A stretch of 64,000 bases of DNA from positions 62,001-126,000 of the forward strand of contig NW_013171832.1 of the NCBI RefSeq assembly GCF_000151665.1. Reading direction: 5' to 3'. This document shows positions 705-53,424 of this stretch, piece by piece. The DNA is from Blastocystis hominis. Taxonomy: Eukaryota > Sar > Bigyra > Opalinata > Blastocystidae. Within the stretch, counting starts at the first letter, position 1; each line of letters starts with the position of its first letter. Position numbers and translations under genes: made by a program. A model generated the notes under the pieces. That model was not told the DNA's origin, did not search any database, and saw only the letters and a program-made list of their open reading frames with translations.

Positions 705-2373
705 ACCACTTCTCAGGTCGATGATGTCCCGATGAAACGGGTCTTTTTCGCATCTCCACCTTCTCTCGCACGGCCTCAATTCCATTCTACACCTCACCCT
801 TCCCCTCCTCTCTCACCGGGCTTCGCTCCAGCGGGTCGTTCGTCACATACATATCCGCTCCCGGCTCGAAAGAGCCATCGCGCAGACTATCTTCAAAGTG
901 TTTCACAAACTTCAATTTATGTCGCATCCACTCGACCGTTCCATTTTCTGCGTTCTCGTCATCCTCTTCGTCCTCTCCATCCACAACATCGCTTCGTCGA
1001 GTGGCCAGCAAATCGTTCTGCGTCAGTTTTCGATCGGATTCGTTCGACTGCTTTTCCTTCGTCTCCGAATCGCTGTCGCTCATCGCATCCACCGCGTTGA
1101 GCGTGTTTCGAAACGCATCGAGCGCTGCCAAGGTCTTCAAATGAAAGAAAAGGATGAGACAAAACGTTTTGGGTTCGTTGGGAAGAGGAAATGGCTCTTC
1201 TTCGCTTGTGCGAACCTGCGAGTTGATTCAAAGTGGCGATGGACTCGCGTTTTTGTTTTGTTTTTTCGAACTAGGGATGAAAGAGGACGGAAGAAGGCCG
1301 CACCTCCATCGATTTCTGCTTCATGGCGCGGATTTTCTCCTTCACGCGCTCCTTCATCGCGTCTTCGGAAGACACGGAAGGTTTGGATGAGGAATGAAGA
1401 GGATTCGATGATTCATTCGATGATTCAATTGATGATTTTCCATCGTTGGAGGCCTTCTCGTCCTCCTTTTCTTTCATCATCGCTTTCATTTTTTCCACCC
1501 ACGCGCTTTTTTTCTCCGCCTTCGGATCCTTCGGATCCTTCGCTTGCTCGCTCTGCGCCGCGTGCTGCGCCGTGAGCTCCTCTTTCTTCACCAATCCGCT
1601 TGCCTCCTGGAAACTCACCACACCGGATGGGAAACCCGCAGAGCCATTTCCATCTCCATCTCCATCGTCATCATCGTCATCGCTGTGAGCAAAGGAAAGA
1701 AGCTTTTTATTGTGAACTTTTTTGATTGAACGCTTCGGAGCAGCAGACGAAGAAGACGCGGTCGAAGGCTCCGCTCGCTTTCTAGATTACAAACAACACG
1801 AATGGATGCCTTGGAACGATATCCGGAAATGGATTCGTTATTACAGACACGGATTTAATTATCGGAGGGTAATGAGGACGATCATTGGAATCCGTCGCTA
1901 ACTCGCCCATTTTTAGCACGTTAAAGATTGTGTTGCCTGTGACCTTGCCAAAAATTGTATTCTTCCCTGCAAGCCAATCCGTGGCTTCTAAAGTGATGAA
2001 GAATTGGCTGTGATTTGTATCTGGACGGTTTTCGTTCGCCATAGCGACGATTCCACGGTGACTGAACTTCAAACGAGGATTAAACTCGTCCTTGAACGCC
2101 TTGTCATAAATCGATTCACCGCCTAATTTTAAATCGCCAGTAATAGCAAATACCTTGTCCAGTTCCGGTCGGATCGCCACCCTGGATCATCATGTTCTTA
2201 ATAATACGATGGAAGATAGTGTTATCATAGTAACCCTCCAAGCATAACTGAACAAAGTTCCGACAAGTCACAGGGGCTTGATCACTCCACAACTCGATAT
2301 CTATGTCTCCGTGAGATGTGTGAAGCACCACCTTTCCATTGGTGTTCGGCTCAACATTGTAGACATACGCCAT
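705..2373 (-). CDS. CWC27: Spliceosomal cyclophilin CWC27
   Basis: Spliceosome-associated peptidyl-prolyl isomerase-like protein of the Bact complex. The N-terminal cyclophilin domain (about residues 1-180) is clear: GDIDIELWS, FHRIIKNMMIQGGDPTGTG, GGESIYDKAFKDEF, SQFFITL, NTIFGKVTG. A charged linker follows, then the conserved C-terminal TLAALDAF and EWMRHKLKF segments. The start MAYVYNVEP at 2373 matches the family N-terminus, so the longer upstream frame was not used. Introns placed at 2123-2153 (31 nt), 1782-1809 (28 nt, GC-AG), 1271-1303 (33 nt), 1135-1165 (31 nt), plus a probable 30-nt intron at about 787-816. If that last one is spliced, no stop is encoded: the frame reaches T at 705, four bases before TGTTTGTT, and the poly(A) tail would complete TAA. 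Without it, TAG at 787-789 would end the protein. It is divergent from the next gene across 78 bp. Confidence 0.92.
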
Positions 2374-2451
2374 GTTGGTAAAACCAAAGTTTGAGAGTTC
2401 AAATCGAATGAAACGCCCGATCGTTACTATCTCCATTTTGTTCGTTTGACA

Positions 2452-3735
2452 ATGAGTCAGCAGAATCAAACAACGGATTCGGACTCTGCTTGCAGTAACA
2501 AGCAACCTTCGACGGAAATTGACGTGTCGATCATTGTACTCCTCGCCTCTGAGACATTGATTCTAGATCCCTATTCACAACGAAAAGGAATTTTTAGATG
2601 AATGCTTTGAAGGGATCGATAAGCAGACTTACACAGGAACAATAGAAGTCGATTTCTTGCTTGCTATTTATGTCTAGTTGTCGATATACAATGACCGGTC
2701 AACAGATGGGTCCGAACAAATAGTGCAAAAATGGATTGAGCACTTCAAACAAAAGGGAATTCCTTCTGTATATTCAGAGAATACTGGGACGACGGGAGGT
2801 TGTGGATTTGCCAAAAACTGCTGTGTGAAACAAAGCCACGGCAAATATCTATGTTTCCAGGATGCAGATGATGTCATGTATCCGGAGCGTATAGCAAAGC
2901 AGGTTGAAGTTTTGAAAAATCATCCCAACGCGATCGTAGGCACCCATTTTGAGTATTAGACTGTTTTTCTCCTATTCTATGATTAGGAGAAAGCCAGATA
3001 ATAGTATGCGCCACTACAGTGAGTGGATGAACAAACTCACAGACGCGGATCTTGAATTGTACCAGTACCGCGAAGTGCTGATCATCCAACCCACGTGGAT
3101 GATGACTCGCGAAACGTTCGACAAAGTGGGAGGGTATTCGCAGCCAGAATCCGAAAACGGTCCATACCCTGAAGTAGATTCCATCTTTTATATATGTTAA
3201 ACAAACCAGGATCTTGACTTTTATCACCGTCATTTAGACCTCCATGGTGAACTGCGAGTCGTTCCTGAAGTGCTTCTGATGTACAGGTACAAGATCGAGA
3301 GCGAATGAAGTGTGAATAGAATGCACGATCACAACACTTGCGCGAAGATTCCACGACGCAAAATTCTGCGAGTGAAATTGCGAGCTTTGGAACGACGAGT
3401 GTTGAATTCGTTGGATCATTTTAGCGTTTGGGGAGCGGGGCGCGATGGCCGCAATTTCGTAAATGACTTAAGCGAGAAAAACCGAAAGAAAGTGGTTTGT
3501 TTCGGAGATGTGGATGTGAAAAAGGTAGGGAATTTAGAAAGAATTAGAGCTGTACAATAGATCGGAACGCGCTATCAGAATCCACTGACCGATGTGGATC
3601 TCCCCATCGTGCATTATTCGGAACTGCAGCCCCCCGTGATTTGCTGCGTGGCATTGGGGAGAACCAATGGCGTGTTTGAATCCAACGTGCAATCGATGGG
3701 GTGGAAGGCAGGCAAAGATTTTTGGTATTTCAACT
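2452..3735 (+). CDS. tRNA-queuosine galactosyltransferase (B3GNTL1/QTGAL family)
   Basis: GT2-type glycosyltransferase. The human orthologue B3GNTL1 was identified as QTGAL, which galactosylates queuosine in tRNA-Tyr. After splicing the GT-A features appear in order: VSIIIPIHNE, LSIYNDRSTDGS, the DXD-like FQDADDVMYP, PEDLDFYHR, LLMYR, then the family C-terminal half FSVWGAGRDGRNF and VVCFGDVDVKK and the end KDFWYFN. Introns: 2536-2566, 2648-2677, 2953-2986, 3174-3209, 3287-3319, 3525-3560 (30-36 nt). No stop is encoded at the natural end: after AAC the frame gives T at 3735, then four bases, then TGTTTGTG, so polyadenylation would create TAA. It converges on TRRAP, and the two share a palindromic 3' element. 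The donor-substrate assignment follows from the family only. Confidence 0.86.
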
Positions 3736-3739
3736 CGCG

Positions 3740-53200: not shown

Positions 53201-53412
53201 GTTCTCGCACTGGGAAATCGTGCCGGGAGACCCGCTGGACCGCAGCGTGAAGATTCTGCCGCTGGAGGCTTCGTCGGGATATAGCTTGGCGCGCGATTTC
53301 ATGCTGAAGACGAGGCGTCGGAAGGGGTTGAGCGAGGATGTGAGCCTGAAGAAGTTCTTTGATGAAGCGATGCTGTTGCAGCTGGCAAGTCAGGAGAATG
53401 AGATTGGTGTTT
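50270..53412 (+). CDS. EFTUD2: U5 snRNP GTPase Snu114 (EFTUD2)
   Basis: EF-2-like GTPase that controls Brr2 during spliceosome activation. Start: ATG at 50270; MEQELYDEFGNYIGPE is the family N-terminus. Next come ENAVTLYEDKKYYPDAEEV and EPIIKPLRQQTFSIMEKTIP, G1 GNIHHGKT, a G2 region EQERGISITSTP, G3 DTPGH, and G4 TKMD. EF2-type domains II-V follow, including DLRHVYSHIDIKVAVPVVRF, GRGQLIPTARRVAYSAFLLA, IPAMDSFGFETDLR and RRRKGLSEDVSLKKFFDEAM. All introns lie in the first 1.4 kb; the last 1.8 kb is uninterrupted and GC-rich. After QENEIGV the frame gives T53412, four bases and TGTTTGTT, so TAA is made by polyadenylation; the genomic frame stays open for 26 more codons. Confidence 0.97.
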
Positions 53413-53416
53413 GGCG

Positions 53417-53424
53417 TGTTTGTT
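53417..53424 (+). terminator. Snu114 3'-end motif TGTTTGTT
   Basis: Perfect motif inside the open frame, four bases after the in-frame T53412. Confidence 0.82.

Follow-up and report, generated by a model that had tools for sequence, protein, structure and literature searches.

Predicted polyadenylation-made stop codons and facing poly(A) signals at convergent gene ends in a 64,000-base window of Blastocystis hominis

Ten genes in a stretch of Blastocystis hominis DNA (contig NW_013171832.1, positions 62,001 to 126,000, here called the window) have no encoded stop codon where their proteins are predicted to end. The window, 64,000 bases long, is C18:62001-126000 of the 18.71 Mb in 40 contigs that were searched as the genome; for the genome of this organism, subtype 7 (ST7), the published figures are 18.8 Mb and 54 scaffolds. 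From the sequence, it is very probable that cleavage occurs four bases upstream of a GU-rich element, that the poly(A) tail makes the UAA, and that convergent genes set two such elements back to back, with the loss of encoded stops concentrated there. In this mechanism, the pre-mRNA would be cut exactly four bases upstream of the downstream element (UGUUUGUU), leaving the last codon with its initial U, to which the poly(A) tail would add AA, giving UAA and an mRNA with no 3' untranslated region. Convergent neighbours would often place two elements back to back (TGTTTGT-N-ACAAACA), and the ends of the two mRNAs, on opposite strands, would then lie 24 bases from each other with no overlap, such facing signals being where encoded stops would mostly be lost. 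Polyadenylation-made stops in the window are an already known mechanism, as an earlier note on this DNA had said: it has been published for ST7, the same subtype (PMC4159000), and for subtype 1 (ST1; PMC5608401). As far as the papers show, the facing-signal layout and its link to stop loss are new within the literature searched; no account of either was found in the main texts of PMC4159000 and PMC5608401 or in the literature on Blastocystis that was searched, supplements and most subscription papers being outside that scope.

The ten ends are given below, each with the in-frame codon at the site, the distance to the next in-frame stop and the length of frame open upstream, both in codons.

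693..705, minus strand, CWC27: T at 705, spacer, exact motif at 693-700; codon TGT; next stop 33, upstream open 27.
3735..3747, plus strand, QTGAL: T at 3735, motif TGTTTGTG at 3740-3747; codon TCG; next stop 32, upstream open 58.
3747..3759, minus strand, TRRAP/Tra1: T at 3759, motif TGTTTGTC at 3747-3754; codon TAT; next stop 9, upstream open 171.
17659..17671, plus strand, PROPPIN: T at 17659, motif TGTTTTCA with three mismatches; codon TGG; next stop 78, upstream open 105; the weakest of the ten.
17671..17683, minus strand, Rad6-like E2: T at 17683, exact motif at 17671-17678; codon TCT; next stop 4, upstream open 44.
19914..19926, plus strand, apyrase (NTPDase): T at 19914, motif TGTTTTCT; codon TTT; next stop 19, upstream open 42.
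26052..26064, minus strand, ADAT1: T at 26064, motif TGTTAGTG; codon TCG; next stop 100, upstream open 414.
45190..45202, minus strand, glycogen phosphorylase: T at 45202, exact motif at 45190-45197; codon TGT; next stop 27, upstream open 134.
48200..48212, minus strand, NELF-C/D-like: T at 48212, exact motif at 48200-48207; codon TGC; next stop 27, upstream open 105.
53412..53424, plus strand, Snu114: T at 53412, exact motif at 53417-53424; codon TGG; next stop 26, upstream open 645.

The earlier note had placed a T four bases before the motif at each of these ends, with the frame open past it, and this was borne out at all ten: the gene strand carries T at every site, followed by four bases and then by TGTTTGTT or a variant of it. 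The motif is exact at five sites (705-, 17683-, 45202-, 48212- and 53412+), with one mismatch at two (3735+ and 3759-), two mismatches at two (19914+ and 26064-) and three at one (17659+), so that TGTTTGTT with at most two substitutions lies exactly four bases downstream at 9 of the 10 sites, 17659 being the exception. In PMC4159000, about 96% of the sites mapped in ST7 by expressed sequence tags (ESTs) are reported to have the motif exactly four bases downstream with two or fewer mismatches. None of the ten has an encoded stop; the leftover bases plus A complete an in-frame stop in all ten cases, in the frame that the note had given, and 4 to 100 further codons pass before the genome gives a stop in frame. 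Exact motifs number 24 in the window, against 2.0 expected. The genome-wide counts of 3601/3703 differ from the published 3,329/3,403 (PMC5608401), perhaps through the counting of overlaps.

Five of the ten ends sit in three back-to-back pairs, 3735 with 3759 and 17659 with 17683 (both gap 1) and 26064 with 26038 (gap 3). Facing signals in the window, to which no strand is assigned, include the following.

3740..3754: facing signal TGTTTGTGACAAACA, gap 1, common to two convergent stop-less ends (3735+ and 3759-).
17664..17678: facing signal TGTTTTC-A-ACAAACA, gap 1, with a degenerate plus-strand arm.
26043..26059: facing signal, gap 3; the end of a plus-strand partner would fall at 26038.
28115..28129: facing signal TGTTTGTAACAAACA, gap 1; the minus-strand site at 28134 coincides in part with a genomic TAG.
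44017..44033: facing signal TGTTTGTCCAACAAACA, gap 3; ribosomal protein L2, on the minus strand, ends with an encoded TAA before reaching its site at 44038.

Perfect cores in the order TGTTTGT...ACAAACA occur genome-wide 0, 71, 36, 38, 29 and 12 times at gaps of 0, 1, 2, 3, 4 and 5 bases, respectively, compared with 2, 2, 0, 0, 0 and 1 in the swapped order, which served as the control; a control with the arms reversed would be void, since TGTTTGT reads the same backwards. The convergent order is thus in excess at gap 1 (TGTTTGT-N-ACAAACA, 71 versus 2), and over gaps 0-30 there are 261 facing versus 23 swapped cases, simple repeats included. Facing and swapped cases number 13 versus 4 in the window (the 13 including overlapping alternatives) and 27 versus 2 in the first 200,000 bases of another contig (C1:1-200000). 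We note that facing cores at gap 0 are absent from the whole genome, compared with 71 at gap 1; the motif's eighth base, or space for two complexes, may be required.

The link to stop loss was examined in 40 fetched gap-1 pairs, i.e., 80 ends, an end with a genomic stop codon at its site not being counted as stop-less. With a frame open for at least 40 codons, 36 of the 80 facing ends look stop-less, compared with 12 of 76 unpaired exact motif sites (P = 0.0001); the same comparison gives 32 versus 10 at 50 codons or more (P = 0.0002) and 26 versus 8 at 70 or more (P = 0.0009). Facing T-sites open for at least 40 codons are distributed over codon positions 1/2/3 as 36/10/12 (P = 7e-6), and as 26/2/4 at 70 codons. 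The excess over the other two frames is 0.31 (0.20-0.43) at facing ends versus 0.07 (−0.03 to 0.17) at unpaired ones, a difference of 0.08 to 0.39, and both ends look stop-less in 11 of the 40 pairs. The shares at facing signals are lower bounds, since upstream-open thresholds of 40, 50 and 70 codons are passed by only nine, seven and six, respectively, of the ten listed ends, whose short upstream open frames end at stops within proposed introns. We consider it probable that convergent genes commonly share a compact, near-palindromic, bidirectional poly(A) element with its cores one base apart, and that this element is a hot spot of stop loss, with about 0.3 (0.20-0.43) of ends lacking an encoded stop, more if introns hide some, and often with both partners affected. 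T at the site in 61 of the 80 facing ends, together with the open frames, suggests that each arm may set the 3' end of the gene it belongs to, and compaction may be the driver.

The earlier note had also stressed that the T falls in codon position 1 in all ten genes. When coding paths were fitted at the ten sites without fixing the end phase, codon position 1 was the best in nine of the nine sites giving a path, with a margin of 2.9 nats for glycogen phosphorylase and at least 7 for the rest apart from CWC27. In a test free of gene models on 87 exact motifs (from the window and C1:1-200000), frames open for at least 50 codons up to the site fall on positions 1/2/3 as 18/7/11; the T-sites alone give 15/5/7 (P = 0.014), and 11/5/7 (P = 0.11) once those with a genomic stop codon at the site, such as TGA, are taken out. 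A control with the reversed octamer still contains the core TGTTTGT and is therefore conservative. T stands at the site in 55 of the 87 motifs, and U is reported to be generally preferred at poly(A) sites of B. hominis; since T is so common there, the phase and not the base is the evidence. The note's frame is open at ten of ten sites, but its T is not independent evidence, and at ordinary motifs the phase excess of truly stop-less ends is no more than suggestive. Home-made Markov models proved unreliable for ab initio gene finding, and only intron lengths were taken from them; these peak at 29-31, the published median intron of Blastocystis ST7 being 31.

The homologues speak to the claim that these are natural protein ends, which they support for seven of the ten genes, three of them weakly, but not for the C-termini of CWC27, QTGAL and PROPPIN. 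The Snu114 alignment runs to residue 965 of 972 in its human counterpart and stops five residues short of the site, that of E2 reaches 149/152, that of glycogen phosphorylase reaches 832/842 with 24 residues left, and the A_deamin domain of ADAT1 is matched to 328/329, eight residues ahead of the site. The weaker cases are TRRAP, with three Tra1 chains aligned to the last residue (E 0.08-0.49), apyrase, with an NTPDase4 match (E 6.6e-4), and the NELF-C/D-like protein, with TH1 just below the cut-off and seven PDB sequences at E 0.44-0.84; from the NELF relatives, no usable C-terminus was obtained. CWC27 has its cyclophilin domain upstream (1785-2562) and no relevant match at the C-terminus, an Hsv2 match covers only residues 2-81 of the 149 in PROPPIN, i.e., its upstream part (the exon joins were read by eye), and for QTGAL only an upstream glycosyltransferase 2 stretch was matched. 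No second genomic copy of window positions 3200-4200 or 17300-18000 was found. As an aside, a queuine tRNA-ribosyltransferase gene (PF01702; 54572-55582, minus strand) shares the window with the gene whose end is at 3735 (+), named as queuosine-tRNA galactosyltransferase (QTGAL) in the earlier note and matched here only to GT2.

ADAT1 was followed further in the tails of 55 relatives (P0001-P0055; later-named ones, mostly from fungi and animals, were excluded), of which 49 contain the anchor ...DRLYYDF and 6 do not. In these relatives, including BLSTO_02367 of ST1, conservation runs one residue beyond the anchor, which is the site in the window, and past that residue the proteins diverge in sequence and length. 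The site residue is directly followed by the signature [S/L/C/W]-x-V in 37 of the 49 anchored relatives, 33 of which continue with C, and this matches the translation of T-NNNN-TGTTTGT, although the S and L in the signature need not derive from a T codon. As 30 of the 37 belong to one near-identical type, few independent lineages are represented; P0034 is the only relative named Blastocystis, and the other close ones are presumably of Blastocystis origin. On this comparison, the stop-less end of ADAT1 looks conserved among relatives, ST1 included. The facing layout may be old as well, for back-translation of the ADAT1 tail of ST1, CSVCNKH, gives a sequence compatible with a facing signal at gap 1. 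For E2, the annotated B. hominis protein (P0123) continues for four residues beyond the proposed site at 17683, into the motif, and closes with ...SATESQSCVC; its C-terminal part is identical to the E2 of the window, and the N-terminal halves differ owing to a different choice of exons.

Several observations weigh against the proposed mechanism. An exact sense-strand TGTTTGTT (58489-58496) lies inside the coding sequence of a dynein heavy chain gene (58305-63998, minus strand), an uninterrupted 1,898-codon frame that runs off the window edge and has an encoded TAG at its end; either the motif is not sufficient, or the dynein gene has a second end. The motif at 17659 has three mismatches, and the phase evidence is uneven: PROPPIN gave no coding path, the margin for CWC27 is 0.3 nats, five of the nine total path scores are negative, so the coding model fitted poorly, and at ordinary motifs the stop-less phase excess taken by itself falls short of significance (13/7/9, P = 0.13). 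To the three protein ends without homologue support and the three with weak matches, we add that 12 of the 49 anchored ADAT1 relatives lack the signature, some of them ending two residues past the F, and that three other Blastocystis E2 proteins have no read-through signature, so that the stop-less end of E2 is not shown to be conserved.

One alternative is that the ten genes have ordinary encoded stops, either because the frame runs to the next in-frame stop or because a last short intron reaches one, with the motif being incidental. In-frame stops do occur 4 to 100 codons on, the one in E2, four codons on, is used by the public B. hominis model, and the ADAT1 relatives that end two residues past the anchor are compatible with an encoded stop. 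However, the best-aligned homologues end at the site or a few residues before it, past that point the ADAT1 relatives no longer agree in sequence or length, and tails at sites of this kind were seen in ESTs of this very subtype (PMC4159000), which together make ordinary stops improbable. A changed genetic code, or sense codons that end translation depending on their context, would also account for the missing in-frame stop at the protein end. The codons at the ten sites, however, were counted as eight kinds (TGT, TCG, TAT, TGG, TCT, TTT and TGC are listed, some twice), and other genes in the window use TAA, TAG or TGA; codon reassignment was rejected because of this number of kinds, and the explanation is scarcely credible. 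Cleavage after the T, with the tail making UAA, fits the anatomy of the sites, the homologue ends, the ADAT1 conservation and the published ESTs of the subtype.

A different doubt attaches to the link between facing signals and stop loss, which might be an artefact of the small comparison set rather than biology. Most of that set (57 of the 76 sites) comes from C1:1-200000, a region with 10,787 unread bases; when only the 19 unpaired sites of the window serve for comparison, significance is lost (36/80 versus 5/19, P = 0.20), and duplicated blocks reported in the genome could inflate the counts. Nevertheless, the excess at facing signals is limited to codon position 1, the P values against all 76 sites stay between 0.0001 and 0.0009 over the three thresholds, and the six non-self BLASTN matches among the 40 loci are all 30-34 bases long, so the loci are not copies. 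We therefore regard an artefact as unlikely, though far less so than ordinary stops.

Less secure in the earlier note is the high local share of stop-less ends, given there as about 10 of 24 genes. The denominator of 24 genes with a placed 3' end could not be reproduced, and the high share is not established, since for 10/24 P is 0.0015 when 15% is expected but 0.07 when 26% is. The lower figure comes from ST7, in which 372 of 2,419 genes, ~15%, were stop-less by EST (PMC4159000), and the higher from ST1, with 26% of genes, in a paper that calls the 15% of ST7 a possible underestimate (PMC5608401). Of the 24 exact motifs of the window, read by eye, 5 mark stop-less ends, 2 have sites overlapping genomic stops, 6 follow an encoded stop at a short distance, 5 lie elsewhere than at a gene end and 6 stayed unresolved. 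Stop-less ends thus make up 5 of 13 resolved ends (P = 0.23 against 26%, 0.03 against 15%), or 5 of 19 with the unresolved ones included (P = 0.57 and 0.14, respectively).

Two further sites in the window bear on TGA or TAG turned into TAA, which is a published class of conversion (PMC4159000, PMC5608401). In a NAA35-like gene (PF25789) at 55863-55875 on the minus strand, a genomic TGA at 55875 would be cut after its T, and the tail would turn TGA into TAA. At 28134 on the minus strand, a genomic TAG overlaps the site, with TA before it, and polyadenylation would give TAA. Elsewhere in the genome, a CSTF2 hinge domain was found in a 141-residue open frame (C1:100012-100170, minus strand), close to the 142-residue truncated CstF-64 that was reported from ST7 and proposed as the reader of the motif (PMC4159000).

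Compared with the polyadenylation-made stops described for ST7 and ST1 (PMC4159000, PMC5608401), the present ends are alike in motif, four-base spacing and predicted creation of UAA; as far as the main texts go, the facing near-palindromic signals and their link to stop loss do not appear there, and PMC5608401 mentions ST4 gene models whose overlap the motif would resolve. In mammalian mitochondria, as cited in PMC4159000, the tail likewise completes UAA in mRNAs without a 3' untranslated region, whereas the genes considered here are nuclear, contain introns and have a downstream sequence element. Convergent gene pairs of Arabidopsis also end in one region on both strands (PMC3032780), but the transcripts overlap and the pairs were chosen for long overlaps, whereas the mRNA ends predicted here stay clear of each other and a single short inverted repeat would serve both. 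Inverted repeats are likewise concentrated near poly(A) sites in yeast (PMC6420913); those repeats are rich in ApT/TpA and A/T tracts, in contrast to the two copies of the TGTTTGT core seen here.

Among the other genes noted, an H+-pyrophosphatase (PF03030, E 6e-251) at 40590-42920 on the minus strand occupies a single open frame that closes with a normal encoded TAA. For open frames at 24-35 kb, ten scans against Pfam gave mostly no match.

A known mechanism has here been checked gene by gene in its original genome. One public model, that of the annotated E2, still overruns the predicted end by four residues, and the read-through tail [F/S/Y/C/L/W]-x-V-C offers a simple signature for spotting more such ends in protein databases. 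If the link between facing signals and stop loss holds, it would provide a testable route to the loss of encoded stops, in which convergent genes are packed against one shared element.

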